A stretch of DNA of 64,000 bases from Rathayibacter sp. VKM Ac-2879. Lineage in GTDB: Bacteria; Actinomycetota; Actinomycetes; Actinomycetales; Microbacteriaceae. Made by a program: the position numbers and the translations under genes. Location: NCBI RefSeq assembly GCF_015351245.1, contig NZ_JADKSO010000001.1:620001-684000 (forward strand), given 5' to 3'. Positions 6,867-34,174 of this stretch are shown here, one piece after another; within the stretch, counting starts at the first letter, position 1, and every line of letters starts with the position of its first letter. The notes beneath the pieces were generated by a model. That model was not told the origin of the DNA and ran no database searches. It saw nothing but the letters and a program-made list of their open reading frames with translations.

Positions 6867-6896
6867 GCCCGCGCGGGGCGTCCCCGCCAGCGGCTC
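6865..6896. terminator. Probable terminator between permease and citrate carrier
   Basis: GCGGGG-CGT-CCCCGC forms a tight hairpin, flanked by an outer GAGCC/GGCTC pair, between the convergent stops at 6866 and 6928. There is no clear U-tract, which is usual in high-GC actinobacteria. Confidence 0.5.
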
Positions 6897-6927
6897 CCTC
6901 CAGACTCCAGAAGCCTTGCGCCCCGGC

Positions 6928-8394
6928 TCATCCGAACGGGATGGAGCCGACCAGGACACCGACGGCGAGCATCACCAGTGACACGACCACCGCGCGCCAC
7001 AGCACCTTGCGGTGATGGTCGCCGAGGTTCACGGAGGCGAGCGAGACCAGGAGGAGGATCGCCGGCACGAGCGGGCTCTGCAGGTGCACCGGCTGCCCGG
7101 TGATGGAGGCTCGGGCCATCTCGACCGGCGAGATGCCGTAGTTGGCCGCGCTCTGCGAGAGCACCGGCAGGATCCCGTAGTAGAACGCGTCGTTCGACAT
7201 GAAGAAGGTCATCGGGATGCTCAGCACGCCCGTGATCGCGGCGAGGAACGGGCCGAGCGCGGGCGGGATGACCCCCACGACCCACTGCGCCATCGCGTCG
7301 ACCATGCCGGTGCCGTTGAGTACGCCGATCAGCACGCCCGCCGCGAGCACCATCGACACGACGCCGACGATGCTCGGCGCGTGCTTGACGATCTCGGCCG
7401 CCTGCTCCTTCATCTTCGGGAAGTTGATCAGCAACGCGACCGCCGAGCCGACCATGAACACGTAGGGCAGCGGCAGGATGTCGGCCACCAGCAGGGTCAT
7501 GACCGCGAGGGTGAGCACGAGGTTGACCCAGATCAGCTTCGGGCGCAGCGTCGCGCGGTCGGGGTCGAGCATCGTGTCGGCCATGGCGGTGTCGGCGTCG
7601 TCGGCCTGGACGCGGGCGGCGACGGCGACCTGGGCGCCGCGCAGCGCCTCCGGACCGCGCAGGAAGGAGAAGCGCTCGCGGGCGAGGGTGCGGATGCCTC
7701 CGGTCAGGGCCGCCAGGCCGCCGGTGCGCGGCGCGGAGCCGGCGCCCACCGCCTCGAACACCGGCTCGGCCAGCGCGAGAGAGCCGAGGCGGCGGCGCTC
7801 GCCGAGCCCGAGGAACCAGGCGAACACGAGCGTGACGACCACGCCGACCGCGAGCGAGGGGAGCATCGGCACGAAGATGTCGGTCGGCGAGACCTGGAGG
7901 GCCGCCGCGGCGCGCACCGTCGGCCCGCCCCACGGGACGATGTTGAGCGTCCCGTTCGCCAGCCCGGCGACACAGGTGAGCACGACGGGATTCATCCCGA
8001 GGCGGAGGTAGATCGGCAGCATCGCGGCCGTCGTCACGATGAAGGTGGTCGAGCCGTCGCCGTCGAGGGACACTGCTCCGGCGAGCAGCGCCGTGCCGAG
8101 CACGACCTTCGCCGGATCGTCGCCGAGAGCGCGGACGATGAAGCGGATCAGCGGGTCGAACAGTCCGACGTCGATCATGATGCCGAAGTACATGATCGCG
8201 AACATGAGCAGCGCGGCCGTCGGAGCGAGGGTGCCGATCGCCTCCATCACCATGTCGCCGATGCCGAGGCCTGCTCCGGCGAAGAGCCCGAAGATCGTCG
8301 GCACGACGATCAACGCGACCATGGGCGTCAGCCGCTTGGTCATGATGAGGGCCATGAAGGCCAGGATCATCGTGAATCCGAGTAGTACCAGCAC
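6928..8394 (-). CDS. CitMHS family citrate/metal-citrate carrier
   Basis: 488 residues with about 12 membrane segments. The N-terminal run MLVLLGFTMILAFMALIMTK, then LSLDGDGSTTFIVTTAA-like and NIVPWGGPTVRAA motifs, are typical of the CitMHS proton symporters that import citrate complexed with Mg2+ or Ca2+ (Bacillus CitM and CitH). A hydrophilic loop near residues 205-290 separates the two halves. The gene is divergent from a CitA/CitB-like two-component system (8562-10897), strongly suggesting that citrate or a related tricarboxylate induces it. Divergent control probably acts through the boxes at 8508-8542. Confidence 0.92.
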   Translation of the reverse strand: MLVLLGFTMILAFMALIMTKRLTPMVALIVVPTIFGLFAGAGLGIGDMVMEAIGTLAPTAALLMFAIMYFGIMIDVGLFDPLIRFIVRALGDDPAKVVLGTALLAGAVSLDGDGSTTFIVTTAAMLPIYLRLGMNPVVLTCVAGLANGTLNIVPWGGPTVRAAAALQVSPTDIFVPMLPSLAVGVVVTLVFAWFLGLGERRRLGSLALAEPVFEAVGAGSAPRTGGLAALTGGIRTLARERFSFLRGPEALRGAQVAVAARVQADDADTAMADTMLDPDRATLRPKLIWVNLVLTLAVMTLLVADILPLPYVFMVGSAVALLINFPKMKEQAAEIVKHAPSIVGVVSMVLAAGVLIGVLNGTGMVDAMAQWVVGVIPPALGPFLAAITGVLSIPMTFFMSNDAFYYGILPVLSQSAANYGISPVEMARASITGQPVHLQSPLVPAILLLVSLASVNLGDHHRKVLWRAVVVSLVMLAVGVLVGSIPFG

Positions 8395-21707: not shown

Positions 21708-22562
21708 ATGACGTCGAGCGAGAATCACAGCGGGGCGCAGAGCCCCGTCCGGCGCCGGGCCATCCTCATCGGAGGCGTCGCCGCGGCGGCCGGTGTCTCG
21801 GCCTTCGGCGTCAGCAGGGCGCTCGGGAGCGGGGGAGGGGTCGCAGCTCCCGCGGTCCCGTCGACCTCCGCAGCGGCCGTCGTCGAGAGCCCGACTCCGA
21901 CTCCGAGCCAGACCGCCTCCCCCTCGCCCACCCCGAGCTTCGACCTCTCTGCCCATTCGATCGACGATCCCGCGAGCATCTGGGTCGTGGTCAACAAGCT
22001 CCGCTCGCTCGACCCCGCCGACTACGCACCGGCGGACCTCGTCTTTCCCGACGTCTCGTACGTGAACCGCCAGCCCATGCGGCAGGCGACGGCGGACGCT
22101 CTCGTCCCTCTGTTCGCCGCCGCCTCGAGCGAGGCGGGACTCTCGCTCGCCGTCCAGAGCGCCTACCGCTCCTACGAGACTCAGGTCAGCGTCTACGCGG
22201 GCTGGGTGTCGTCGCGGGGGCAGGCCGGGGCGGATGCCACCAGCGCGCGGCCGGGGCACAGCGAGCACCAGACCGGCTGGGCGGTCGACGTGACCGGCGC
22301 GTCCGGCACCTGCGCGCTCGAGATCTGCTGGGGCGATACTCCGGAGGGTCGCTGGGTCGACGCGAACGCGTATCGCTTCGGGTTCCTGGTGCGCTATCTG
22401 GCCGACACGACTCCGATCACGGGGTACGAGTCGGAGCCGTACCACCTCCGCTTCGTCGGCACCGAGCTCACCCGTTATCTGCACGACTCCGGCATAACGA
22501 CGCTCGAACGGGCATTCGGGCTTCCGGATGCGCCCGATTACGCGCCCGGAACGACGAATTAG
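21708..22562 (+). CDS. M15 family D-alanyl-D-alanine carboxypeptidase (VanY-like), exported
   Basis: 284 residues. The N-terminus carries an RRRAILIGGVAAAAG export signal (twin-arginine-like), then a Pro/Ser/Thr-rich linker (about 55-78). The catalytic domain has the zinc motif SARPGHSEHQTGWAVDV (His and Asp ligands, near 180-196) and the second site EPYHLRFVG (catalytic Glu and third His ligand, near 247). Such enzymes trim the terminal D-Ala from peptidoglycan stem peptides outside the cell. It is divergent from the MurE-like gene, an association consistent with wall metabolism. Confidence 0.9.
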   Translation: MTSSENHSGAQSPVRRRAILIGGVAAAAGVSAFGVSRALGSGGGVAAPAVPSTSAAAVVESPTPTPSQTASPSPTPSFDLSAHSIDDPASIWVVVNKLRSLDPADYAPADLVFPDVSYVNRQPMRQATADALVPLFAAASSEAGLSLAVQSAYRSYETQVSVYAGWVSSRGQAGADATSARPGHSEHQTGWAVDVTGASGTCALEICWGDTPEGRWVDANAYRFGFLVRYLADTTPITGYESEPYHLRFVGTELTRYLHDSGITTLERAFGLPDAPDYAPGTTN

Positions 22563-22676
22563 CGACTCCGGCACTCAGAGTCGGATGAGATCGGGCGTGA
22601 CACACGCCGCTCGTTACCGTACTGTTATTCGGAGCCCTTTCGGAGGCCCGTCTGACGGGTCTCCCACCATCGCCTG

Positions 22677-24239
22677 GTGACATGGCCGCTTCCCCCGCTC
22701 CTCCGGCACGGACCCCCGACCGTGCAGCCGATCCGTGAGACCTCTGTGCCCCGTCGTTCCCCCGTTCAGTCCCCCTCCTCCGTGACCCCTCGGTCCTCCC
22801 CGCCGCCCCGCCCGTCGCGCACGGTTGCGCCCGCAGATCCCCCGAGCTCGGACGGCGCGAGACCGCTCGCCGCGCCACCGCTGACCCGCCGCGAGGCGCG
22901 CGAACGCGAGGGCCGCCTCCGCGATGCCCCGCGCCCCTCGGCGCCCGCATCGCCGCGCATCGCGGAAAGAGCCGCCTCCGCCGCTCCGCCGAGTGCCTTC
23001 GCCTCCCGCCGCGATCGCCGCGCCGCCGAGGGCCGCCGCGCGCACGCGTCGCGCGCCGGCGCCTCCTTCTTCCGTCCGACGACGAAGCACCTCGTCCTGG
23101 CGATGTCGGGCGGACTCGTCGTCGTGGCCGTCGCCTCGGGTGTCGGCCTCACGGTGGGCTCGACCGAGTCGGCCGAGTCGGCCTCCGCGAGCCCCTCGCC
23201 GACGAGCGTGCCGATGCTGCCGACGACCGCCCCCGCCTCCTCCCGCGTCGCGCTGAGCGCGGTCTCGACCACGTCCGGCACGGTCGCCGGCGGCACGAGC
23301 GTCACCCTCTCGGGCGCGAACCTCGACGCGGTCGCCGCGGTCCGCTTCGGCGGCTCCGAGGGCACGGTCGCCATCGACAACCCCGACCAGATCACCGTCA
23401 CCGCGCCCCCGGCGAGCGGGCAGACCGAAGGAGTCGTGCCGGTCGCGTTCTTCGACGCGAGCGGGGCGCCTATCACCTTCGATGCCGTGACGGACGCTGC
23501 GGCGGCCGTGACGGTCGACGGTGCGCCGGCCGACACCGTGCAGTCCGCGGTCGACACGAGCGGCGAAGACCTCGACACCACGGCCGCACCCACCGCCCAG
23601 CCCGCGGCGGACGTCACCGCACCGACCGCCACTCCCCCTGCCGAAGCGGATGCCTCCGCCACGGCCGAGCGCATCGCCACGGAGCCCACCCCTACCGGTG
23701 TGCTGGCCGCGGCGAAGGTCGTCGCCTCGGCGATCACCTTCGCGTACACCCCCGACCCCGCGGTCGAGGCGGCGAAAGCCGAGGCCGCTCTCGCCGCAAG
23801 CCGCCTCGCCTCGCAGCTCGACTACCTCCGCACCTACTGGTCCGACTACAACAGCGCCCAGTACGGAGTGATCGGCGGCAACGACTGCGTCAACTTCACC
23901 TCGCAGTCGCTCATCGCGCGCGGCTGGACGATGGACGGCGAGTGGAACTACTCGCGTGCCGCCGGGTACAGCTCCGCCTGGGCCTCCTCGACGGCGTTCA
24001 ACGCCTATCTCACGGCGCACCCCGAGCGGGCGACCCCGATCGCGAACTCGCAGCGCGAGAGGGTCAAGCCGGGCGACATCGTGCAGTTCGACTGGGACGG
24101 CTCCGGAGACTGGGACCACACGGGCGTCGTGACGAGCGTCACGGGAAACACGATCCTGTACTCCTCGCACACGGCCGACAATCACGATCAGAGCGTCGAC
24201 TCCGCCTCGGCCGCGCGCATCATGTTCTGGGGCATCTGA
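22677..24239 (+). CDS. Exported amidase-domain protein with IPT/TIG domain
   Basis: Up to 520 residues; GTG 22677 is the longest start and a GTG near 22746 (VPRRSPVQ) is possible. Residues 1-130 are Pro/Arg/Ser-rich and disordered, then one membrane anchor (LVLAMSGGLVVVAVASGVGL). An IPT/TIG beta-domain follows (SGTVAGGTSVTLSGANLD...), then an Ala/Thr/Pro linker and a C-terminal Amidase_6-type domain with GNDCVNFTSQ (catalytic Cys) and GDWDHTGVVT (catalytic His). The domain is of the NlpC/P60-CHAP-like fold, so hydrolysis of peptidoglycan or a secreted peptide is likely. The long N-terminal cytosolic tail is unusual. Confidence 0.8.
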   Translation: MTWPLPPLLRHGPPTVQPIRETSVPRRSPVQSPSSVTPRSSPPPRPSRTVAPADPPSSDGARPLAAPPLTRREAREREGRLRDAPRPSAPASPRIAERAASAAPPSAFASRRDRRAAEGRRAHASRAGASFFRPTTKHLVLAMSGGLVVVAVASGVGLTVGSTESAESASASPSPTSVPMLPTTAPASSRVALSAVSTTSGTVAGGTSVTLSGANLDAVAAVRFGGSEGTVAIDNPDQITVTAPPASGQTEGVVPVAFFDASGAPITFDAVTDAAAAVTVDGAPADTVQSAVDTSGEDLDTTAAPTAQPAADVTAPTATPPAEADASATAERIATEPTPTGVLAAAKVVASAITFAYTPDPAVEAAKAEAALAASRLASQLDYLRTYWSDYNSAQYGVIGGNDCVNFTSQSLIARGWTMDGEWNYSRAAGYSSAWASSTAFNAYLTAHPERATPIANSQRERVKPGDIVQFDWDGSGDWDHTGVVTSVTGNTILYSSHTADNHDQSVDSASAARIMFWGI

Positions 24240-24313: not shown

Positions 24314-24487
24314 CTACTTCCTGAAGACGTCCTTGACGTCTTCTCCGACCTTCTTGGCCTGCGCCTTGGTCTGGTCGGCCTGACCCTCGGCCTCGAGGCG
24401 CTCGTTGTCGGTCAGCTTGCCGACCGCCTCCTTCGCCTTTCCGACCAGGTTCTCGGCCGCGTTGCGGATCTTGTCATCAGCACCCAT
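24314..24487 (-). CDS. CsbD family stress protein
   Basis: 57 residues, matching the CsbD family: MGADDKIRNAAENLVGKAKE at the start, then DNERLEAEGQADQTKA. It is highly charged and helical. CsbD-like proteins are among the most strongly induced general-stress proteins in Bacillus and relatives; their function is unknown. AAAGGAG lies eight bases before the ATG, indicating strong translation. It is the last gene of the Asp23-type operon (74-base gap), which supports a stress role for that operon. Confidence 0.92.
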   Translation of the reverse strand: MGADDKIRNAAENLVGKAKEAVGKLTDNERLEAEGQADQTKAQAKKVGEDVKDVFRK

Positions 24488-24560: not shown

Positions 24561-25184
24561 TCAGGCCACGCGGTCCTCTTTCGAGAAGCCGGCGCGTGCA
24601 CTCGAGGCGATCTCGAGGACGACGGGGAGGCGTGCTCCCAGCAGCCGGTCCATCGAGACGACCTCCTCGTGCACGGCGTCGACCACTGCACGGGGAGAGA
24701 CGCCGGCGCGGGGGAGTGCGCGGACCTTGAGGGCGGTCTCGGAGCCGTGGCGGTACGCCGAGACGGTGACGTCGAGGAGGTCGCCGCGACCCGCGAGCGC
24801 GTTCTCCAGGACGTCCTCCGCGAACCCGGTCGCGATCTCGATGCGACCCGCCGGCCCGGCCCCGTCCGCCTCGTCGGTCAGCACGGTGCCCGTGCGTCCT
24901 CGGCCGTGGGCCAGGGCCAGCGCGAGGGCGAGCACGATGCACAGGAGGCAGATCCCGACGATCGCGTAGAGAGGCCACAGGACCGCGGCGTCGCTCCACG
25001 TCGTGCCCGCCTCGGGCGAGATCCGCGAGACGAGAGCGGCCCCCCGACCTTCGCCGAAGGAGGCGACAGAGTCGCGGACCGGCTGCGAGACGGCGACGAG
25101 GGTGAGCCCGGCGGCCACCGCGGCGAGCACGAGCCCGACGAGGAGCAGCACGAAGCGATTGACGAAGCGGTTGCTCGTGGTCAT
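24561..25184 (-). CDS. amaP-like: AmaP-like membrane anchor for Asp23 proteins
   Basis: 207 residues with two membrane helices (about 10-32 and 70-95) and a cytosolic C-terminal domain with alternating strands and helices (RIEIATGFAEDVLENALAG, ALPRAGVSPRAVVDAVHEE). This topology matches AmaP, the alkaline-shock membrane anchor that tethers Asp23 to the membrane in Staphylococcus. It lies directly after the DUF6286-like gene (TGATG, one-base overlap). The name is an inference from topology and context; sequence similarity was not computed. Confidence 0.65.
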   Translation of the reverse strand: MTTSNRFVNRFVLLLVGLVLAAVAAGLTLVAVSQPVRDSVASFGEGRGAALVSRISPEAGTTWSDAAVLWPLYAIVGICLLCIVLALALALAHGRGRTGTVLTDEADGAGPAGRIEIATGFAEDVLENALAGRGDLLDVTVSAYRHGSETALKVRALPRAGVSPRAVVDAVHEEVVSMDRLLGARLPVVLEIASSARAGFSKEDRVA

Positions 25185-25783
25185 CAGATCCTCCCGGAGT
25201 CGGCGACGCGCACGGAGGCGCGCGGCGCGGGCGCGGCGGCGATGCGGGCGAGCTCGGCGTCGACTGCCGACTGCACACCGTCGCGGTCAACGGCGATTCC
25301 GGACGAGGGCGTGATCTCGACGATCGCGGAGCGACGCCCTACCGAGGCCCTCGTGTCCTCGCGCCGCGAGCGGGCACTCGTGCGAGCGGTGCGCGCGAGG
25401 GCTGAGGCGATCACGCCGTCGTCGACGACCACGGCAAGGCGATCATCGTCGATGGTGTGTCGGGCGCGGGCTCCGGGCGCCACGGCCAGCACGATCAGGA
25501 TCAGCGCGAGCACTCCCACGACCACGGCGATGCCGATCAGCGCGCCGGAGGCGAGCGACCCGACTCCGACGATCGCCGCCAGGATCGCCGAGGGGGCGAA
25601 GAGCAGCGGTGCGGCACCGATCACGGCGAGCACCGCCTCCGTGCCGACGTAGGCGGCGACCAGGGCGAGGATCGCCAGGACGACGATCTGCGCCGCGGAT
25701 CGGGAGCGGTGCGTCTCGCGTCGCAGATAGCGGCGGTAGTGCGTGTCCGGAGCGAGGGTGCGCGCCGGGGTCGCGGAACTCAT
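25184..25783 (-). CDS. DUF6286-like membrane protein
   Basis: 199 residues. Two or three hydrophobic segments (about 28-50, 58-80, 82-106) precede a soluble C-terminal domain containing the DDDRLAVVVDDGVIASALARTAR stretch and SSGIAVDRDGVQSAVDAEL, which resembles the small alpha-beta modules of the Asp23 world. Similar proteins sit in Asp23 clusters of many actinobacteria. It overlaps the upstream Asp23-like gene by four bases and the AmaP-like gene by one. Its biochemical role is unknown. Confidence 0.7.
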   Translation of the reverse strand: MSSATPARTLAPDTHYRRYLRRETHRSRSAAQIVVLAILALVAAYVGTEAVLAVIGAAPLLFAPSAILAAIVGVGSLASGALIGIAVVVGVLALILIVLAVAPGARARHTIDDDRLAVVVDDGVIASALARTARTSARSRREDTRASVGRRSAIVEITPSSGIAVDRDGVQSAVDAELARIAAAPAPRASVRVADSGRI

Positions 25784-26127
25784 ACGACTCTCCTCGTGGG
25801 TCGGGTGCGGGTGCCGGTGACGCGGACGTCCACCCGGCTGACGGAGCGACCGGTGAGGGCCTCCATCCGGGAGGCGATCCGGGCGCGGCCTCGGTGGAGG
25901 CGCTCGAGCACCGTCTCGGACGAGGCCGGGGCGTCCGGGTCGACCACCACGGGGGTGGTGACAGCGAGTGCGAGCCCGCCATGATCGTCGGAGAGGTGGA
26001 CGCGGATCGCGGAGAACTCCACGTTCAGCTCCTCGTGCACGATCGCCGACGCCATCCGCTCGATCGAGCGCGCAGAGACGGTGACGGTGCCCGCCACCGC
26101 TGCGGGACGCGTGTCGAGAACGGTCAT
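25780..26127 (-). CDS. Asp23/Gls24-like protein (second paralogue)
   Basis: 115 residues from the ATG at 26127. It has the Asp23 core: GTVTVSARSIERMASAIVHEE, then IRVHLSDDHGGLALAVTTPVVV, an amphipathic helix, and a last strand SVSRVDVRVTGTRTRP. It lacks the long N-terminal extension of the first paralogue. Asp23/Gls24 proteins form membrane-proximal assemblies that report envelope stress. It starts 8 bases after the DUF2273-like gene and overlaps the next gene by four bases. Confidence 0.8.
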   Translation of the reverse strand: MTVLDTRPAAVAGTVTVSARSIERMASAIVHEELNVEFSAIRVHLSDDHGGLALAVTTPVVVDPDAPASSETVLERLHRGRARIASRMEALTGRSVSRVDVRVTGTRTRPTRRVV

Positions 26128-26135
26128 GACGACTC

Positions 26136-26363
26136 CTAGCGCGAGGTGGTGCGGCCGCGGAACACGTCGACCAGGCTGCGCAGGTCGAGGGTCCCGTCGA
26201 GGACGCGGGCGATCACGACGCCGAGGCCCATGAAGACGGCGGTGAGGACGAATCCCCAGAAGCCGAAGGCCAGCGCCGCGAAGGCGAGGATGGCGCCGAC
26301 GGCGACGCCGAGGACGGTGCTGCGGTTGCTGGGCGTGCGGCCGGTGCCGCTGAACTCGCTCAT
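26136..26363 (-). CDS. DUF2273-like small integral membrane protein
   Basis: 75 residues with two membrane segments (about 17-35 and 38-55) and a C-terminal RSLVDVFRGRTTSR tail. DUF2273 proteins are the second membrane partner found beside Asp23 and AmaP in Firmicutes and Actinobacteria. The start overlaps the stop of the asp23 gene (ATGA). Confidence 0.8.
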   Translation of the reverse strand: MSEFSGTGRTPSNRSTVLGVAVGAILAFAALAFGFWGFVLTAVFMGLGVVIARVLDGTLDLRSLVDVFRGRTTSR

Positions 26364-26836
26364 CGGACGCGGCTCTCGGTGTCGTCGTCGCCCTTGTCGT
26401 CGCCGGGGATGTGGACGTCGACGATCGCGACGTTGATCTCGGCGACGTCCATGCCGAGCAGCTCGGTGATGGCGTCGGCGACGGCCGCGCGCACGGAGTC
26501 GGCGACCTGCTGCATCGGGACCGGGTAGTCGACGACGACGGTGACGTCGGCGGCGACCTGGGTCTCACCGACCTCGACGCTCACGCCCTGTGCGTGGTCG
26601 TTGCCGCCGACGGCCTGTCGGAGCGCGCCGAAGGCGCGGGCGGCGTTGTTGCCGAGCGCGTAGACGCCGGGGACCTCGCGAGCGGCGATGCCGGCGACCT
26701 TCGCCACGACGCTGTCTTCGATGACGGTGCGGCCCTGGGCGACGCCGGAGGCGGCGCTGCCGCCGAGGCTCGTCACCGTCTCGACGGTGGAGCCCCCGGC
26801 GGTCGGGGCGGAGGGAGTGCGAGTGCTGTCGCTCAT
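26360..26836 (-). CDS. asp23: Asp23/Gls24 family envelope stress response protein
   Basis: 158 residues from the ATG at 26836 (AGGAGA ribosome site). A Ser/Thr/Gly-rich N-terminus of about 35 residues leads into the canonical Asp23 domain: GRTVIEDSVVAKVAGIAAREVPGV, then VSVEVGETQVAADVTVVVDY, QVADSVRAAVADAITELLGM and VAIVDVHIPG. This is the classical form, abundant and membrane-associated in Gram-positives and induced by alkaline or antibiotic stress. It heads a six-gene operon (asp23, DUF2273-like, Asp23-like, DUF6286-like, AmaP-like, CsbD), divergent from the ECF sigma gene. Confidence 0.92.
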   Translation of the reverse strand: MSDSTRTPSAPTAGGSTVETVTSLGGSAASGVAQGRTVIEDSVVAKVAGIAAREVPGVYALGNNAARAFGALRQAVGGNDHAQGVSVEVGETQVAADVTVVVDYPVPMQQVADSVRAAVADAITELLGMDVAEINVAIVDVHIPGDDKGDDDTESRVR

Positions 26837-27025
26837 GATGTCTCCTGGACGTCTTGTCGGCTGCGGTTGCTGAGCAGGCCGGTGGTGGGCCCGGCGGAAA
26901 CCCGGTCGGGCTGTGCTTTCATGGGAGAGACGGAGCCTCAAGGGGGATCGTCACGGTACGAATCGACTTTTTCCTGACCGTTGCCTGTGTACCGAGGGCC
27001 CGGGTCGGAGCGGAGGGGGTGCACC

Positions 27026-27574
27026 GTGCCCGGACTGGACGCGGCGAGCGATGCGCTCCTCGCCGAGCGTGCCGCGGAGGGCGATGTGCGAGCCTTCGAG
27101 GTGCTGGTCAAACGGCACCAGTCGCTTCTGCGCGCGTACGCCTGGCGGTTCACCGGCTCGCAGGCCGACGCCTCCGACGCCGTGCAGAACGCCCTCATCA
27201 CCGTCTGGGCGCAGCTTCCGCAGCTCAAAGAGCCGGCGAGCGTGCGCAGCTGGATGATGCGGATCGTGAGCCGCGCGAGCGTCGACCTGCTCCGACAGCG
27301 GCGCCCCACCGACGACGTCGATGCGGTCGAGCATCCGCCTGCCCGCGAGCCGGGCCCCTTCGAGGCGGCCGAGCAGAGCGACGCGATGAAGGCGCTGGCC
27401 GCGGCGCTCGCCGAGCTTCCGGAGTCGCAGCGGCAGTGCTGGCTGCTCCGCGAGGTCGGCGGAGAGTCCTACGGTGAGATCGCCGAGCACCTGGGCCTGA
27501 CGGTCACCGCCGTGCGGGGCAAGCTCGCACGTGCGAGGGAGTCGCTGGTCGTTGCGATGGAGGACTGGCGATGA
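27026..27574 (+). CDS. ECF-type RNA polymerase sigma factor
   Basis: 182 residues from GTG 27026 (GGAGGGGG six bases upstream; the earlier in-frame start at 26981 has none). Region 2 is at about 20-95 (FEVLVKRHQSLLRAYAWRF, DASDAVQNALITVWAQL) and region 4 at about 125-180 (AELPESQRQCWLLREVGG, YGEIAEHLGLTVTAVRGKLARAR). Regions 1 and 3 are missing, as in extracytoplasmic-function sigma factors. The next gene looks like its anti-sigma partner, and the divergent asp23 operon is a probable target. Autoregulation is expected, but the promoter motif cannot be fixed from one sequence. Confidence 0.9.
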   Translation: MPGLDAASDALLAERAAEGDVRAFEVLVKRHQSLLRAYAWRFTGSQADASDAVQNALITVWAQLPQLKEPASVRSWMMRIVSRASVDLLRQRRPTDDVDAVEHPPAREPGPFEAAEQSDAMKALAAALAELPESQRQCWLLREVGGESYGEIAEHLGLTVTAVRGKLARARESLVVAMEDWR

Positions 27575-27587
27575 GGGAGCAGACGCA

Positions 27588-28250
27588 ATGAACGCCGACG
27601 ACACGCCTGGCGTCCCTGGGCGGGGCGACCGGCTCGAGCGTGACGACGCCCTCGAGGTCGTCGCGCCGGGCGAGCCGGGAAACGACGAGACCCCAGAGGG
27701 CATCGGGATCGACGAGCTGGGCGACTACCTCGATCGAGGGCGCGTGCCCTACGACCCCGCGATCGAGGAGTCACCGGAGCACCGACGGATCCTGCAGGCC
27801 CTCGAGCGGGTGCGCGCACTCTCCGGTGCGCTCATCGACGACGACGCCGAGCGGCTCCCGGCCCCCAGCGACAGCTGGTTCGGCTCGATCCTCACGCAGG
27901 TCAGTCGGGAGGCTCGCGCTGGTCGCGACATCCCCCTGGCAAGCGTGCAGCCCGACGTGGCGCTGACGATCACGGAGGGCGCGGTCCGGGGCCTGGTGCG
28001 GGAGGCGGGTGACAGCGTCCCCGGGGTCCTGGTCGGGCGGTGTCGCCTCGTGGGCGCGGTCGACGAGCCCGGCGCGGAGGTCCTGGTCGAGGTGACCCTC
28101 TCGGTGTTCTGGGGAGTGCCCATCGCGCGGGCCGCCCAGCAGGTGCGCGAGCGCATCCACTCGCGACTGCTCACGCAGACAGAGCTGCGGGTCTCGACGA
28201 TCGACATCCGTGTCGAGGACGTCTACGTCCCTGAAGTGGAGGAATCGTGA
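27588..28250 (+). CDS. Anti-sigma-like domain fused to an Asp23-like domain
   Basis: 220 residues. Residues about 40-100 read IGIDELGDYLDRGRVPYDP and then SPEHRRILQALERVRALSGAL, closely following the shape of zinc anti-sigma domains (LxxYLDGEL ... CPxC ... LRALSAAL), with Ser-Pro-Glu-His where the cysteines would be. Residues 115-215 are an Asp23-like module (VALTITEGAVRGLVREA, VLVEVTLSVFWGVPI, QQVRERIHSRLLTQTELRVSTIDIRVEDVYV). It starts 13 bases after the sigma gene. The proposed role, holding the sigma factor in check until the Asp23 module senses envelope stress, is inference. There is no membrane helix, so sensing would be cytosolic. Confidence 0.75.
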   Translation: MNADDTPGVPGRGDRLERDDALEVVAPGEPGNDETPEGIGIDELGDYLDRGRVPYDPAIEESPEHRRILQALERVRALSGALIDDDAERLPAPSDSWFGSILTQVSREARAGRDIPLASVQPDVALTITEGAVRGLVREAGDSVPGVLVGRCRLVGAVDEPGAEVLVEVTLSVFWGVPIARAAQQVRERIHSRLLTQTELRVSTIDIRVEDVYVPEVEES

Positions 28251-28621
28251 GCGGCGGCGACATCTCCGCCCAGGGCGCGACCCTCTCGGCCGCGATCGGA
28301 GCCTTGGTACGCGGACTCGACGGCGTGGCGATGCTCGTCCCCGCGCGCTCGGAGGTGCGCGACGTGATCGCCCACGCGGCGGGGAGGCTCGCTCCGGCGG
28401 GCAGCGCGCTCGGTGCCGCTACGGGCGGCACCTTCGCCGAGCCTGTGCTCGTGCGCGTCACCGCGGAGGAGATCGTCGTGGCCGTCGACGCGTGCGTCGG
28501 CGCAGACTCCTCGGCGCCCGACGTCGCCCGTGCGATCGGGGCCGCGGTGCGAGAGTGGTGCCTCCGCGAGCACCCGCAGCGAGCACCGCGGGTCAGCGTG
28601 CGGATCGCGGGCGTCGACTAG
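28247..28621 (+). CDS. Small Asp23-like protein of the sigma operon
   Basis: 124 residues from GTG 28247, overlapping the upstream stop by four bases (GTGA). An N-terminal helical part (AALIGALVRGLDGVAMLVPAR-like) is followed by VLVRVTAEEIVVAVDACVG, a helix DVARAIGAAVREWCLREH and a last strand PRVSVRIAGVD. This is the strand-helix-strand arrangement of the Asp23 fold in truncated form. It is the third gene of the sigma operon. Its stop overlaps the stop of the convergent kinase gene. No closer function can be given. Confidence 0.65.
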   Translation: MSGGDISAQGATLSAAIGALVRGLDGVAMLVPARSEVRDVIAHAAGRLAPAGSALGAATGGTFAEPVLVRVTAEEIVVAVDACVGADSSAPDVARAIGAAVREWCLREHPQRAPRVSVRIAGVD

Positions 28622-29553
28622 CGGTCCTCGCGGTCACGGAGGAACGCCTCGACCTCCTCGGCGCTCGGCGCGGACACGGCAGCGCCGGCCCGGGTGACCG
28701 AGAGCGCTGCGGCAGCGCTCGCCCAGATCGCGAGCGCGAGCAGCGCGTCTGGGTCATCGAGCGCGGTGCCCTCGGCGGCGAGTCGCGCCGCGAAGGCGCC
28801 GCAGAAGGTGTCGCCCGCGCCCGTGGTGTCGACGACGTCGACTCGGAAGGCGGGGGCACGCAGCGGCTCGCGGTCGCGTACGGCCACGACGACCCCGTCG
28901 CCGCCGAGAGTCACGACCACCAGCGGCACCAGTGCGGTCAGGGCCGCAGCGAGGGCGGAGTCGTCGGGCTCGGCGATCCTGCGGGTCGCCGCCAGCTCGC
29001 GCGCCTCGTGCTCGTTGACGATGAGCACGTCGAGGGCGTCGAGGAGCGGGGCCGGGAGAGGCCTGATCGGCGCGGCATTGAGGATGGCGGTCGTGCCGGC
29101 CGAGTGGGCCGTACGCACCGCCTCCAGCACGGCCTCCAGCGGTGTCTCGAGCTGCAGGAGGAGCGCCCGCGCCTCGCGGACGAGCCGCGCCTCCTGCTCG
29201 CTCAGGCCGACGAGCGCGGCGTTGGCGCCGGAGTCGACGACGATCGCGTTCTCTCCCGCGGCATCGACCGTGATCTGCGCCGTGCCGGTGCGCGTCTCGC
29301 CTCGGCGCGCGTGCAGCTCGAGCGGCTCCCGGGCGAGCACGGCCGCGAGCTCGTCGCCTGCGGAGTCGGAGCCGAGGCTCGTGACGAACACGGTGCCCGA
29401 CGCGGTGCGTGCCGCCGCGACCGCCTGGTTGAGGCCCTTGCCGCCGGGGAAGGTGCGGGCGTCGAGCGCGAGCACCGTCTCGCCGGGCGCGGGGATGCGC
29501 GCGACCCTGTGCACGTGGTCGAGGTTGGCGCTGCCGAGGACGAGGAGGGACAT
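28618..29553 (-). CDS. PfkB family carbohydrate kinase (ribokinase-like)
   Basis: 311 residues. The PfkB signatures are clear: GSANLDHVHRVARIPAPGET at the N-terminus, the sugar-binding FPGGKGLNQAVAAAR near 35-49, and the C-terminal DTTGAGDTFCGAFAARLA near 240, with the catalytic Asp and anion hole. The pattern is closest to ribokinase (PGGKGxNQA), which phosphorylates ribose at O5. No rbs transport genes are adjacent, so other sugars or nucleosides are possible. Convergent with the Asp23 operon, with overlapping stop codons. Confidence 0.9.
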   Translation of the reverse strand: MSLLVLGSANLDHVHRVARIPAPGETVLALDARTFPGGKGLNQAVAAARTASGTVFVTSLGSDSAGDELAAVLAREPLELHARRGETRTGTAQITVDAAGENAIVVDSGANAALVGLSEQEARLVREARALLLQLETPLEAVLEAVRTAHSAGTTAILNAAPIRPLPAPLLDALDVLIVNEHEARELAATRRIAEPDDSALAAALTALVPLVVVTLGGDGVVVAVRDREPLRAPAFRVDVVDTTGAGDTFCGAFAARLAAEGTALDDPDALLALAIWASAAAALSVTRAGAAVSAPSAEEVEAFLRDREDR

Positions 29554-29605
29554 GCCGTCGACGTTAGGGCACGCGCAAGGGGGTCCGTGGCGCGCCGGCC
29601 GCGCC

Positions 29606-29611
29606 TACGGT
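29606..29611 (+). promoter_or_regulatory. -10-like element ahead of the aldo/keto reductase
   Basis: TACGGT followed by GGAGGC and the ATG at 29618. The six-base spacing matches the leaderless pattern. The GGAGG would be too close for a standard ribosome site. Confidence 0.4.
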
Positions 29612-29617
29612 GGAGGC

Positions 29618-30604
29618 ATGCAGACTCGAATCTTCGGACGCACCGGTGTGCCCGTCTCCGTCGTCGGCCTCGGAACCTGGCAGCTCGGCGCCGACTGGGG
29701 TGACGTCGCCGACAGCGAGGCGCTCGCCGTGCTCGACGCCGCCGTCGACTCGGGTGTGACCCTCTTCGACACCGCCGATGTGTACGGCGACGGTCGCAGC
29801 GAGCGCACGATCGGCGCCTACCGAGCTGCGCATCCTGACGCCCCCGTCTTCGTCGCCACGAAGATAGGACGGCGACTCGAGCAGGTCCCGTCGAACTACG
29901 TGCTCGAGAACTTCCGTGCGTGGACCGATCGCTCGCGCACCAACCTGGGCGTCGACACCCTCGATCTCGTGCAGCTGCACTGCCCGCCCACCCCCGTCTA
30001 CTCGGACGATGCGGTCTACGACGCCCTCGACACGCTCGTCGCCGAGGGCGCGATCGCGCACTACGGCGTCTCGGTCGAGCGCACGGAGGAGGCGCTCGCC
30101 GCGATCGCGCGCCCGAACGTCGCGAGCGTGCAGATCATCCTCAACGCGTTCCGCCTGAAGCCGCTCGACGAGGTGCTGCCTGCAGCCCAGGAGGCGGGCG
30201 TCGGCGTCCTCGCGCGCGTACCGCTCGCCTCGGGGCTGCTCAGCGGCCGCTACACGACCGAGACCACCTTCGCTCCCGACGACCACCGTGCCTACAACCG
30301 CGACGGCTCCGCTTTCGACGTCGGCGAGACCTTCTCGGGCGTCGACTTCGCGACCGGCGTCGAGGCTGCTCAGGAGTTCTCTTGGCTCGCCGAGGGCCAC
30401 GGCCTGTCGCCGGCGGCCGCGGCCCTCGCCTGGATTCTCGAGCGGGACGGCGTGACCGCGGCGATCCCGGGCGCACGCTCCGTCGAGCAGGCGCGGGCGA
30501 ACGCCTCCGCCGCCGATGCCGTCCCTCTCGGCCCCGCCTTCACGGAGGCGGTCACAGCGCTCTACGACACGTACTTCCGCCCCACTCTCCACGCGCGCTG
30601 GTGA
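29618..30604 (+). CDS. Aldo/keto reductase
   Basis: 328 residues of the AKR TIM-barrel family: GTWQLGADWG near the N-terminus, the DTADVYGDGRSE catalytic segment (Asp and Tyr, near 50-58), VATKIGRR (Lys near 85), DLVQLHCPP and the C-terminal NADPH-binding IPGARSVEQARANASA. It reduces carbonyls with NADPH and probably belongs to the YghZ/L-glyceraldehyde reductase-like group. It is transcribed alone, divergent from the kinase gene. Confidence 0.92.
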   Translation: MQTRIFGRTGVPVSVVGLGTWQLGADWGDVADSEALAVLDAAVDSGVTLFDTADVYGDGRSERTIGAYRAAHPDAPVFVATKIGRRLEQVPSNYVLENFRAWTDRSRTNLGVDTLDLVQLHCPPTPVYSDDAVYDALDTLVAEGAIAHYGVSVERTEEALAAIARPNVASVQIILNAFRLKPLDEVLPAAQEAGVGVLARVPLASGLLSGRYTTETTFAPDDHRAYNRDGSAFDVGETFSGVDFATGVEAAQEFSWLAEGHGLSPAAAALAWILERDGVTAAIPGARSVEQARANASAADAVPLGPAFTEAVTALYDTYFRPTLHARW

Positions 30605-30700
30605 CGTCCGACTCCCCGTGGAGGGGGAGGGGCGCTGCCCAGAGCGGCCCGGCCGTCTGCCGGCAGGCACAGGCGTCGTGAGGCGAGTCCTCGAACGTGC

Positions 30701-30880
30701 GTGTCGGACATGTCGACCATCACTGTCACCGACGCGCGGGCCAGCTTCTCTGACCTGATCGCTCGCTCCCACGCCGAAGAGGTGTTCGTCGAGCGCCGCG
30801 GTCGCGCCGGGGCCGACGATGCGCAGGCCTTCGATGCCGCGATGGCCGAGGAAGGCGAGAACATCCCCTGGGCTCAGGCG
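30701..30880 (+). pseudogene. Remnant of a Phd/YefM-family antitoxin with internal deletion
   Basis: From GTG 30701 (or ATG 30710) the frame reads STITVTDARASFSDLIARS, then EEVFVERRGR, the classic Phd/YefM N-terminus. It jumps directly to AFDAAMAEEGENIPWAQA, the C-terminal toxin-binding part. The middle segment, normally about 25 residues (RAAVVISPERYE... region), is missing. The frame then runs on without the normal end into the transporter upstream region, and no toxin gene follows. It is therefore a decayed toxin-antitoxin locus. The rest of 30605-31007 shows no gene. Confidence 0.7.
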
Positions 30881-31007
30881 GATCAGCGCATCCAGGGTGT
30901 CATCGCCCTCCTCGGCGAGGGGCCACGGCCCCCCGAGCGAAGTCGTCAGCGCCGGGTGCGGTCGGCTCCTTCGAGACGGAGTCGCGTGCCGGCGTGCCCT
31001 TGGCTTC

Positions 31008-31036
31008 TTGACCTCGTCATGTCCTGCCGCCATACT
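31008..31036 (+). promoter_or_regulatory. Promoter of the TRAP-permease/RraA operon
   Basis: TTGACC (31008-31013) and CATACT (31031-31036) separated by exactly 17 bases. This is the closest match to a housekeeping promoter in the window; the expected start is near 31043. The first gene (ATG 31106) lies about 60 bases downstream, so the 5' leader contains the palindrome at 31053-31071. Confidence 0.65.
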
Positions 31037-31045
31037 CGTCGGAAC

Positions 31046-31071
31046 GAACTATCAGTTCATCTGATGAACTG
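31046..31071. promoter_or_regulatory. Overlapping palindromes, candidate IclR operator
   Basis: CAGTTCATC-T-GATGAACTG (31053-31071) is a perfect 19-bp palindrome. Its left part also pairs with an upstream half as GAACT-ATC-AGTTC (31046-31058). Three half-sites thus lie at about +4 to +29 of the predicted transcript. The IclR-family regulator encoded in this operon (33416) is the obvious candidate binder. Confidence 0.7.
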
Positions 31072-31105
31072 CTACTCCCTCAACGTCGAGCGGAAGGAAC
31101 ACCCC

Positions 31106-32452
31106 ATGGGGTTGGCTGTCTGGGCCCTCATCGCGTACATCGCGATCATCGTGATCTGGAGCGTCGCTCTCAAACGCGGCATCGGCGAGGCCATGGTCGT
31201 CGGCTTCCTGGCCGTCTGCGCGTTCGGCGGAGGCGACTTCCTGCGCCTCGTGCTGGTCGGCATGCAGGCCGCGTTCGACCAGGAGATCGTGTTTGCGGCG
31301 CTCGCGTTCACCTTCATCGGCTTCCTGCTGGCGTCGACCGGAGTGATCGACCGGCAGGTCGACCTGCTCAACTCTCTGCTCGGACGGCTGCGCGGCGGAG
31401 CGGGCTACGTCGCGACGGTGGGCTCGGCTCTGTTCGGAGCCGTCGCGCACTCCGGGTCCGCGAACGCGGCGACGATGGGCTCGGTCGCCATCCCGTGGAT
31501 GAAGCGCTCGAACTGGCCGCCGCACGTGGCGGCGACTCTGATCGCCGGCAACGCCGGCAACGGAACGGTCATCCCTCCGAGCGCATCCTTCTTCATCCTG
31601 ATCGGCACTGCCACCGTGGCGCCCTACGTCTCGATCGACCAGCTCCTCCTGGCGATGTTCGCCGCAGCCGCCTGGTGCATCCTCTGGCGCCTCATCGTCG
31701 TCTTCTACTTCGTCCGCAAGTACAAGATCGGCCGCGTCGCCGCGGCCGACATCCTGCCCTTCGCGAAGTCGTTCCGACGCGGCTGGACCTCGCTGCTCGT
31801 GTTCCTGGGCATCATCATCCCCGTGCTCGTCACCCTCGGACCCACGGGCGAGGCCTTGACCGGAGTGCTCGGCGAGGACGTCATGGATTCCATCAGCATC
31901 ATCGTCTGGATCCCGGTGCTACTCGGTATCTTCGCCGCCCTGCTCGGCTGGAGAGGACTGCCCAAGTCGGGCTCGGAGTGGTATGGGTTCGTCGCGAAGA
32001 CCGCGCCGCGCTACCGCGATATCGGAGCGACTCTCGTGTTCGCCTTCGCCGGCGGCGCCGTGCTCACCGAACTCGGTCTCGCCGAGCAGCTCTCGAGCGT
32101 GCTCAACGGCCTCAACGCGTCACCCGTCGTCATGTCGGTCATCGTCGCCGTCATGGTCGTCCTCGTCGCCGGACCGCTGAGCTCGACCGCGACGATCGCC
32201 ACCATCGGAGGCATCGGCTTCAGCGTCCTCGTGGCCTCGGGCGTCGATCCAGTCCTCGCGGCCTGCGTCGTCCTGGTCGCGGCCTCGACCGAGGGCGCCT
32301 CCCCTCCCGGCGCGGCAGCGATCTACATCGCCACCGGCATTGCTCAAGTGAACCCGGTCAAGACATTCGTTCCCCTGATCGTCCTCTACGTGATCCCCAT
32401 CCTCGTCATTGCCGCCCTCATCGGTCCGGGATGGCTGCCGGTGCCGCACTGA
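31106..32452 (+). CDS. TRAP-type large permease (DctM-like)
   Basis: 448 residues from the ATG at 31106 (AAGGA seven bases upstream). About twelve hydrophobic segments are present. Key loops are HSGSANAATMGSVAIPWMK, AGNAGNGTVIPPSASFFILIG and STEGASPPGAAAIYIATG; the Pro-Pro-Ser and Gly-rich loops are like those of the DctM subunit of TRAP carriers for organic acids. No periplasmic binding protein gene is in the operon, which is unusual. The neighbouring RraA and dehydrogenase suggest a hydroxy- or oxo-acid substrate. The longer open frame (from 30701) is the decayed antitoxin read-through. Confidence 0.8.
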   Translation: MGLAVWALIAYIAIIVIWSVALKRGIGEAMVVGFLAVCAFGGGDFLRLVLVGMQAAFDQEIVFAALAFTFIGFLLASTGVIDRQVDLLNSLLGRLRGGAGYVATVGSALFGAVAHSGSANAATMGSVAIPWMKRSNWPPHVAATLIAGNAGNGTVIPPSASFFILIGTATVAPYVSIDQLLLAMFAAAAWCILWRLIVVFYFVRKYKIGRVAAADILPFAKSFRRGWTSLLVFLGIIIPVLVTLGPTGEALTGVLGEDVMDSISIIVWIPVLLGIFAALLGWRGLPKSGSEWYGFVAKTAPRYRDIGATLVFAFAGGAVLTELGLAEQLSSVLNGLNASPVVMSVIVAVMVVLVAGPLSSTATIATIGGIGFSVLVASGVDPVLAACVVLVAASTEGASPPGAAAIYIATGIAQVNPVKTFVPLIVLYVIPILVIAALIGPGWLPVPH

Positions 32453-32498
32453 TGCGCGCCCGCCTCCCCCTCTTCTCGCACTTCTCAAGGAGCCTCTG

Positions 32499-32777
32499 AT
32501 GCCCGAAGAATCCGCCCCTCGCGACACCCCGCACGGCCCCGGCCGGCAACGCGTCATTTCCGTCATGACCACGGTCTTCGTCGTCCTCCTCGTCACGATG
32601 CTCGTGCTCGGCGCGATCCTCGTCCTGCTGCAGATCGCCGGCTTGATCGTCGTGAACGGCGGCTTCATCACCGAAGTCTCGGCCGTGCTCAGCCCGTGGA
32701 CCTTCGGCGTCGCCGGCGTGCTCGGGATCTGGACGCTGCTCCTCTCTTACGCCCACGGATGGAAGCCCGCCGACTAG
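32499..32777 (+). CDS. Small membrane protein of the TRAP operon
   Basis: 92 residues with two hydrophobic segments (about 22-48 and 62-82), a polar N-terminus and a short cytosolic tail. AAGGAG lies eight bases before the ATG. The position right after the large permease is where a TRAP small subunit (DctQ, normally four helices, 150-200 residues) is usually found, so it may be a shortened small subunit. The sequence itself does not show DctQ motifs. Confidence 0.7.
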   Translation: MPEESAPRDTPHGPGRQRVISVMTTVFVVLLVTMLVLGAILVLLQIAGLIVVNGGFITEVSAVLSPWTFGVAGVLGIWTLLLSYAHGWKPAD

Positions 32778-32783
32778 GCGGGC
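32765..32783 (+). terminator. Hairpin spanning the stop codon of the small membrane gene
   Basis: GCCCGCC-GACTA-GGCGGGC is a perfect 7-bp stem whose loop and right arm contain the TAG stop (32775-32777). It has no U-run and the next gene begins 24 bases later, so it may reduce read-through (attenuation) rather than end transcription. Confidence 0.5.
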
Positions 32784-32806
32784 CCGCGACACGGAACGAG
32801 ACCGAT

Positions 32807-33391
32807 ATGACTGGAAAGACTCTCCTCGAGCGCTTCGCCGCTCTCCCCGTCGCCAATGTCGGCGACTCCATGGATCGCCTCGGCGTGGTCGACGCGGCGA
32901 TCCGGCCCGTCTGGCGCGGCGCCCGCCTCGCTGGCCCCGCCTACACGGTCGAAGTCGCCGGTGGTGACAACGCCGGCATCCACGAGGCGATCACCCGACT
33001 CAGCCCCGGCGACGTCCTCGTCGTGAACGGCCACGGTATCCAGGACCGCGCGCTCGTCGGCGAACTGATCGGCGAGCGGCTGCGCAAGGTCGGCTGCATC
33101 GGCATCGTCATCGACGGCGCCCTGCGCGACGTCGACGACCTCGAGGAGATGGGCTTCCCCGCCTTCGCCCGCGCCGTCAGCCCCGCCGGGCCGTACAAGA
33201 ACGGTCCTTTCCGGCTCGGCGTGCCCGTCGCGATCGGCTCGGTCGTGGTCGCGCCTGGCGACCTCGTCCTCGGCGACTCCGACGGCCTGGCGATCGTCCC
33301 GCGCGGTGAGGCGGAGGCCGTGCTCGGGCGGGCGGAGGCGAAGCACGCCACCGAGTCCCAGACCCGGAAGAGCATCGTGGCGGGACCGTGA
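32807..33391 (+). CDS. RraA family protein (aldolase/RraA-like)
   Basis: 194 residues with the RraA fold motifs: LPVANVGDSMDRLG near the N-terminus, AGPAYTVEVAGGDN, GDVLVVNGHGIQDRALVG near 65-82, GCIGIVIDGALRDVDDLEEM near 97-116 and APGDLVLGDSDGLAIVPRG. RraA relatives are either RNase E inhibitors or class II aldolases acting on 4-hydroxy-4-methyl-2-oxoglutarate and similar acids (metal-binding GxxxDGxxRD pattern, here IDGALRDVDD). Context with a TRAP permease and a 3-hydroxyacid-dehydrogenase relative favours the aldolase role. Confidence 0.85.
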   Translation: MTGKTLLERFAALPVANVGDSMDRLGVVDAAIRPVWRGARLAGPAYTVEVAGGDNAGIHEAITRLSPGDVLVVNGHGIQDRALVGELIGERLRKVGCIGIVIDGALRDVDDLEEMGFPAFARAVSPAGPYKNGPFRLGVPVAIGSVVVAPGDLVLGDSDGLAIVPRGEAEAVLGRAEAKHATESQTRKSIVAGP

Positions 33392-33415
33392 GCGCCCCCC
33401 GGGAGAATAGGGGCC

Positions 33416-34174
33416 ATGGCCCAGACTCCCGCGGACACGTCCGCCTCGACCGTGCGCAGCATCGACCGTGCGCTCGACCTGCTCGAGCTCCTCGAGTCCA
33501 GCGAGACACCGATGCGCTTGGTGGAACTGAGTCGAGGATCCGGTTTGCACAACGCGACCGTGCTGCGGATCCTCGGCTCGCTCCAGCATCGCGGATTCGT
33601 CGCCACCGAGAACGGGCTTTACCGCCTGGGCCCGGCGGCGCTCGGCATGGGCCACAGCTATCTGGTCACCGATCCGTTGAGCAGCCGAGCCCGACCTGTG
33701 CTGCAACAGCTGGCGAGCAGCACCGGCCTGACCGCCTCGCTCTACGTGCGGATCGGCGACTCCCGGATCCTCACGGTCCGCGTGGACGGGCAGGACCCAC
33801 TGCGCTACCAGCTTCCCCTCGGCCGACGGCTCCCGCTGCACGTCGGCGCCGGGAAGAACATCCTGGCCGCCCTGCCGGACGACGAGCTCGACCGGATCCT
33901 CGACGGACTCGGCGACACCGCCACCGCGGCCGGCGAGAAGGTCACGGCCCAGGAGTTGCGCGCACAGCTCGAGCAGGTCCGCAGGGATGGCTCGCACATC
34001 TCCATCAACGAACGCGAGACCGGCGTCGCCGCCGTAAGCGTCCCCCTGCACGCCTCCTCCGGTGATGTGATCGCCGCGATCTCGGCCTCGGGTCCCCTCG
34101 AGACCACCCTCCGCGCCCGCCTCGAGGCGCAGGTGCCAGAACTGCGCAGAGCGGCAGCCGCTCTTCAGCGCTAG
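33416..34174 (+). CDS. IclR family transcriptional regulator
   Basis: 252 residues. The N-terminal winged helix-turn-helix (SIDRALDLLELLESS, RLVELSRGSGLHNATVLRILGSLQHRGFV) and the C-terminal effector domain (LTASLYVRIGDSRI, PLHVGAGKNILAALPDDEL, DGSHISINERETGVAAVSVPL) are complete. It lies inside the operon it probably controls, 24 bases after rraA. The best candidate operator is the palindrome at 31053-31071. IclR repressors are usually released by the pathway substrate. Confidence 0.93.
   Translation: MAQTPADTSASTVRSIDRALDLLELLESSETPMRLVELSRGSGLHNATVLRILGSLQHRGFVATENGLYRLGPAALGMGHSYLVTDPLSSRARPVLQQLASSTGLTASLYVRIGDSRILTVRVDGQDPLRYQLPLGRRLPLHVGAGKNILAALPDDELDRILDGLGDTATAAGEKVTAQELRAQLEQVRRDGSHISINERETGVAAVSVPLHASSGDVIAAISASGPLETTLRARLEAQVPELRRAAAALQR

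Follow-up and report, generated by a model that had tools for sequence, protein, structure and literature searches.

How might an extracytoplasmic function (ECF) sigma factor be controlled when the gene that follows it lacks the ligands of a zinc anti-sigma domain and ends in an Asp23 domain? The question is raised by a locus of Rathayibacter sp. VKM Ac-2879 contained in a stretch of 64,000 nucleotides (nt) (the window; contig NZ_JADKSO010000001.1, positions 620,001–684,000), whose own numbering is used here. The sigma factor gene (27026–27574, + strand; GTG start), designated sigma 27026, codes for 182 amino acids (aa) with Pfam domains Sigma70_r2 (E = 6.5e-16) and Sigma70_r4_2 (E = 4e-15), and is followed on the same strand by gene 27588 (27588–28250), coding for a putative anti-sigma factor of 220 aa. 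We consider it likely that the 27588 product is a soluble anti-sigma factor for sigma 27026, with an Asp23 domain that links the sigma factor to an Asp23/AmaP envelope complex, and that a promoter-like element shared with a divergent asp23 operon provides feedback. Four sequence comparisons support this reading: the homology of the N-terminal domain family, its linkage to a sigma gene, the shared element and the co-occurrence with the asp23 operon.

The 27588 protein is predicted to consist of a variable N-terminal tail, a degenerate anti-sigma domain (the N-domain; residues 41–118, 27708–27941, + strand), supported by a family alignment, the series of zinc ligands and an AlphaFold2 (AF2) model, and a C-terminal Asp23 domain (residues 127–215, 27966–28232, + strand). 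The closest relatives are from Rathayibacter, the name carried by eight of the 13 loci retrieved with the 27588 protein; their sigma factors are 90.1–94.5% identical to sigma 27026 and the gene order is kept in all eight, with the distal csbD-like gene found in seven. Because residues ca. 42–118 are conserved among relatives while residues 1–40 vary, and because the order recurs in Rathayibacter, the layout goes beyond chance.

With the N-domain as query (E ≤ 0.01), matches were obtained in 53 of the 150 host-family genomes and in 17 of the 394 from the class, where single weak rows may be due to chance; a full-length alignment search reached 90 of the 394 class genomes (E ≤ 1e-8), many of them through the Asp23 part alone. 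The 114 loci studied comprise the window, 13 loci from the search with the 27588 protein, and 100 fetched stretches, corresponding to 40 of the 71 N-domain places in the family and 60 places from the full-length class search; three N-domain places of the class (G380, G397 and G517) lie outside this set. The N-domain is present in 89 of the 114 loci, including the window.

The initial annotation had described the segment as shaped like zinc anti-sigma domains and devoid of the HxxxCxxC motif, and the absence of the motif was confirmed. The window reads E, A, S and H at the four ligand positions, whereas the complete C-H-C-C set (C, HxxxCxxC) occurs in 26 of the 89 N-domain loci. Nine further loci conserve three of the four ligands: one reads D-H-C-C, and eight, which lack the histidine, read C-x-C-C. 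The other 54 retain two, one or, as in the window, none. These states are not scattered when mapped on a sigma factor tree (81 of the 89, after eight near-copies were dropped): the 27 zinc-type sequences, including the D-H-C-C locus, require two changes, compared with a mean of 22.9 after shuffling, and the six C-x-C-C sequences fall on one side of a single branch. The alignment of the N-domain family (71 sequences) matched 30 independently collected zf-HC2 anti-sigma domains, 29 of which have a sigma open reading frame (ORF) in the same stretch, over 67 collinear columns (hhalign, 96.6%, E = 5e-10), the best of 30 column shuffles reaching 0.8%; the 38 sequences without CxxC gave 38.4% on their own. 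A search of PDB sequences with the N-domain profile retrieved as best match 3hug_B (E = 3.5e-4), labeled by the tool as a conserved membrane protein, which we take to be RslA, the anti-sigma factor of Mycobacterium tuberculosis SigL, in a chain bound to SigL; RsiW was second (E = 0.076), and the anti-sigma factor DdvA appeared at E = 0.23. Additionally, the NCBIfam model "anti-sigma factor" matched 12 of the 71 N-domains (best E = 2.6e-5). The AF2 model of the N-domain is all-helical (residues 41–49, 63–89 and 95–109), with good confidence (predicted local distance difference test, pLDDT, 87.3).

Several results weigh against this assignment. Unrelated proteins, at E values of 0.1 to 0.14, follow the two best PDB sequence matches, and the 11 Cys-free sequences of the family, taken alone, gave only 9.9% against the zf-HC2 anti-sigma set. 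For the N-domain of the 27588 protein itself, neither Pfam nor NCBIfam gave a match (nothing in Pfam over residues 40–100); zf-HC2 was never over its cut-off in the homologs scanned, with one of the 71 N-domains at E = 0.017 and the best homolog, L133, at 17.3 vs. 22.2 bits. The structural resemblance of residues 40–100 to an anti-sigma domain, which the initial annotation had proposed to check, found no support: among the 14 rows that Foldseek gave for the N-domain model (best E = 1.1) none was an anti-sigma structure, and the VIA rows for this model contained no anti-sigma chain either. Since the family profiles fit while the fold search finds no anti-sigma factor, the window N-domain is, as judged by its sequence relatives, a zinc-free homolog of anti-sigma domains and not a zinc anti-sigma domain; put in terms of its homologs, it is a putatively degenerate form of one.

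The genomic context agrees with a function connected to a sigma factor. An ECF sigma gene lies upstream, on the same strand and at no more than 414 nt, in all 89 N-domain loci. Conversely, no sigma gene was found in 22 of the 25 loci where the profile matches the Asp23 part only (L165–L168, L170–L180, L182–L185 and L187–L189, mostly from large genomes). In these 22 loci the matched part starts at or near the linker, with little N-domain-like sequence before it; all 22 are divergent to an asp23 operon, and 21 carry towards the C-terminus a second part resembling p3, the short gene downstream of 27588. In two other loci (L181 and L186) sigma is present and the upstream segment no longer matches the N-domain. 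The counts of 89/89 and 22/25 therefore suggest that sigma and N-domain come and go jointly, the Asp23 part remaining, although the 22 sigma-less loci may trace back to a single event or to a few independent ones, which would weaken this argument. A single locus, L160, displays a natural fusion of an ECF sigma and an Asp23 part in one reading frame, without N-domain (6603–8291, − strand), situated directly behind an asp23 operon.

The assignment of an Asp23 module to the 27588 protein was confirmed, as residues 162–212 match Pfam Asp23 (PF03780; 3.4e-7) with 31.1 bits over a cut-off of 28. The AF2 model of the whole protein has a pLDDT of 91.8, and hydropathy identified no membrane helix in it (maximum Kyte-Doolittle mean over 19 residues, 1.52); the corresponding maxima for the DUF2273, DUF6286 and AmaP-like proteins of the neighboring operon are 2.45 to 3.32. 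This operon, transcribed divergently from sigma 27026 (− strand), starts with an Asp23 protein gene (26360–26836; Pfam Asp23, 1.7e-25), followed by genes for a DUF2273 small membrane protein (26136–26363; Pfam, 1e-8), a short Asp23-like protein (25780–26127), a DUF6286 membrane protein (25184–25783; Pfam, 2.3e-7, below cut-off with 31.7 vs. 35 bits) and an AmaP-like membrane protein (24561–25184; NCBIfam anchor_AmaP, 2.7e-6, below cut-off with 27.2 vs. 55 bits), and ends with a CsbD-like stress protein gene (24314–24487; Pfam CsbD, 4.9e-18). Using DUF2273 as a marker of the operon, we found it in 46 of the 150 host-family genomes, of which 45 have the N-domain, compared with 8 of the 104 genomes without DUF2273 (Fisher p = 8.5e-29, not corrected for kinship). 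Within the stretches fetched, DUF2273 and AmaP were both present in 60 of the 89 N-domain loci; the pair was not seen in the other 29 within the stretch at hand, which weighs against the reading favored here.

These data bear on an alternative explanation, that 27588 codes for an ordinary soluble anti-sigma factor: its N-domain would hold sigma, its Asp23 domain would serve dimerisation or stability and have no sensing function, and the signal would arrive elsewhere, e.g., by proteolysis. The anti-sigma homology of the N-domain and the sigma linkage would be expected from it too, and the Asp23 fold resembles the C-terminal domains of cation-efflux proteins, which often dimerise. Nevertheless, we find it unlikely, because the N-domain is present in 45 of the 46 genomes with DUF2273, and because the 22 loci without sigma and N-domain still keep the Asp23 part, divergent to an asp23 operon, as if it had a separate function together with this operon.

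Between the divergent operons there is a near-palindromic element, GACG-N16-CGTC (26929–26952), which we propose as the promoter or promoters of sigma 27026; 74 nt separate its end from the sigma start, and the Asp23 start is 93 nt away from it. After removal of duplicates, 55 loci were considered that do not belong to the main zinc-type group (the four-ligand L133 is one of them). In the upstream 300 nt the element is found for sigma in 32 of 55 cases and for asp23 in 27 of 40, whereas shuffled sequences give a mean of 0.75 matches in 95. Only the gap of 16 stands out, from the gaps of 8 to 25 examined before sigma and of 10 to 22 before asp23. In divergent loci a single element stands before both genes, and five of the 12 asp23 operons that are not divergent from sigma have their own copy (L090, L114, L118, L134 and L135; seven are without it), a count that excludes the Asp23 domain of the anti-sigma factor itself. 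A second, diverged sigma/anti-sigma pair was observed in two genomes that also contain the Rathayibacter locus (L090:6016–7320 and L113:6871–8223); since it has the same promoter-like element, the two sigma factors may cross-talk in these genomes.

Other genes of these loci have the element upstream less often than sigma and asp23 do, but its occurrence there (DUF2273, 9/33, the highest; DUF6286, 4/44; AmaP, 7/64; CsbD, 2/20; p3, 4/43; anti-sigma gene, 0/55) weakens the case for a dedicated promoter. The same applies to its matches within the window, 15 vs. 10.8 expected, which are not above chance, and to the loci with full zinc ligands, where asp23 is preceded by GACG-N16-CGTC in 1 of 23 cases and by a related motif, GACA-N17-CTCA, in none of 23. 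Neither motif is present in the 22 sigma-less loci; we do not take this as proof of a connection to sigma, since zinc-type loci also lack the exact motif. In a wider scan of six Rathayibacter genomes, RGACG-N16-CGTCACG occurred at 62 places and the reversed pattern at 19, and no coherent wider regulon was seen in the 29 readable of 30 loci, five of which are before orthologs of sigma 27026. The divergent asp23 operon, initially put forward as the regulon of the sigma factor and still a putative one, is tied to it by a common promoter-like element and by co-occurrence in genomes.

Being an inverted repeat in its specified bases, the element could instead be an operator for an unlinked dimeric regulator, so that sigma and asp23 would be co-regulated with the sigma factor acting on neither. 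We regard this as quite unlikely, because the flanks differ by direction (CGTCACG in 23 of 31 elements in the sigma reading, CGTGACG in 19 of 27 in the asp23 reading, counts that are not independent because divergent loci provide the same elements read from both sides), and because in the zinc-type loci (L139–L164) it is the non-palindromic GACA-N17-CTCA that precedes sigma, in 10 of 26. Very unlikely, finally, is a structural role, in which the 27588 product would belong to the Asp23 complex and its N-domain would recruit sigma as a partner or co-activator without inhibiting it, more so after zinc loss. The ligands lost in the window's lineage, the fold search without an anti-sigma match and the L160 fusion might suggest this; we doubt it because the conservation of residues 42–118 and the 89/89 sigma linkage outlast the loss of the ligands, and zinc-free anti-sigma domains are common, and inhibit.

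We favor 27588 as a putative soluble anti-sigma factor that ties sigma 27026 to the Asp23/AmaP complex; that it binds and inhibits the sigma factor, that its Asp23 domain docks, and in which direction and on what signal (envelope stress or drying) the switch works are inferred. The N-domain, having lost zinc but kept its partner, would hold sigma, and the Asp23 domain, be it a sensor, a tether or a structural partner, would probably dock on an assembly of Asp23, AmaP and DUF6286 at the inner face of the membrane, whose state would decide whether sigma is held or free. The Asp23 domain of the anti-sigma factor could join such an assembly because in staphylococci AmaP, encoded in the same operon, keeps Asp23 at the membrane, where Asp23 forms filaments (PMC6954212). 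Stress might set sigma free either from the membrane or from unbound anti-sigma factor. Once freed, sigma would use the common element to transcribe both its own operon and that of asp23; the newly made Asp23 proteins would then feed back on the anti-sigma factor, and sigma could tune how much Asp23 is made.

One candidate signal is drying. Desiccation of Curtobacterium raises genes for Asp23, GlsB and CsbD, together with two unspecified sigma genes (PMC12029717), which may be orthologous to the genes of the locus. Conversely, an Asp23/Gls24 gene of Streptomyces venezuelae, which may or may not belong to such a module, falls after ethanol shock (PMC9769785), which fits less well with a simple induction by envelope stress.

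A bolder version of the switch, which we hold as tentative and rather doubtful, is that it reads the Asp23 scaffold itself: the anti-sigma factor would be a grafted subunit of a membrane-bound Asp23 polymer, whose assembly or shortage would set the amount of free sigma, which in turn makes Asp23. If so, this would be a self-measuring envelope scaffold that operates without zinc, proteolysis or a transmembrane anti-sigma factor. Envelope proteins of the Asp23 family are widespread, with a mechanism not yet understood in detail, and an anti-sigma factor reading their assembly state would be a direct reporter of what Asp23 senses.

The soluble zinc anti-sigma factors of the RsrA, ChrR and RshA type share with the 27588 protein solubility, an N-terminal anti-sigma domain and a gene close to that of the sigma factor, and their motif (C, HxxxCxxC) is kept in homologs of 27588. 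They differ in that the 27588 protein is without the ligand set and carries Asp23 at its C-terminus instead of a cupin or redox-active stretch. RslA, the best PDB sequence match of the N-domain family if 3hug_B is indeed this protein, is membrane-bound and contains zinc, whereas the 27588 protein has neither the zinc ligand set nor, by hydropathy, a membrane helix. In Staphylococcus aureus, asp23 is controlled by SigB. Asp23 and AmaP share an operon there as in the window, but an anti-sigma domain fused to Asp23, predicted in the 27588 protein, is not described in the part of the staphylococcal study available (PMC6954212).

The closest precedents are the sigma groups ECF286 and ECF292, for which soluble Asp23-family proteins were predicted as putative anti-sigma factors, with no experimental data at the time (Casas-Pastor et al. 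2021, as reported in the review PMC8999054). A switch of this kind was therefore already in print as a prediction, contrary to the statement of the initial annotation that none had been described. The likeness consists of an ECF sigma gene beside one for a soluble Asp23-family putative anti-sigma factor, and was drawn from the neighbor gene; the present locus differs by an anti-sigma domain identified by homology, by the loss of its zinc ligands, and by a divergent asp23 operon that has an element in common with sigma. Among the titles and abstract openings of the open-licence literature we found no experiment on a pair of an ECF sigma and an Asp23-family anti-sigma factor, and neither a zinc-free version nor a concerted loss of N-domain and sigma. 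The natural series from full zinc ligands to none, with sigma still linked, makes the role of zinc in anti-sigma domains accessible to study, and the layout of the circuit is now defined well enough to be tested.

The short gene downstream of 27588, p3 (28247–28621, + strand; 124 aa), had been annotated as a second short Asp23-like protein. Its ORF is present in 75 of the 89 N-domain loci in the fetched stretches, and profile comparison of 75 position-matched homologs with 70 Asp23 proteins agrees with that annotation (95.1%; column shuffles ≤0.6%), but p3 has no Pfam Asp23 match and its 11 closest relatives alone gave only 4.2%. The product of 25780–26127 in the divergent operon, also without a Pfam match, is likewise assigned by profile comparison (97.5% with 52 position-matched homologs; shuffles ≤3.2%; 40.6% with the 28 closest relatives alone). 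Earlier sets for both proteins (96.8% for p3 and 99.6% for the 25780–26127 product) were set aside, because Asp23 proteins of the operon could have drifted into them.

On its upstream side, the asp23 operon is adjoined by genes for two putative secreted proteins (21708–24239), one resembling by eye a D,D-carboxypeptidase and the other with a C-terminus like that of cell-wall amidases. The locus also neighbors what appears by eye to be a carbohydrate-acid gene cluster (28618–34174), with ribokinase-like, aldo/keto reductase-like, permease-like and RraA-like genes and an IclR-type regulator.
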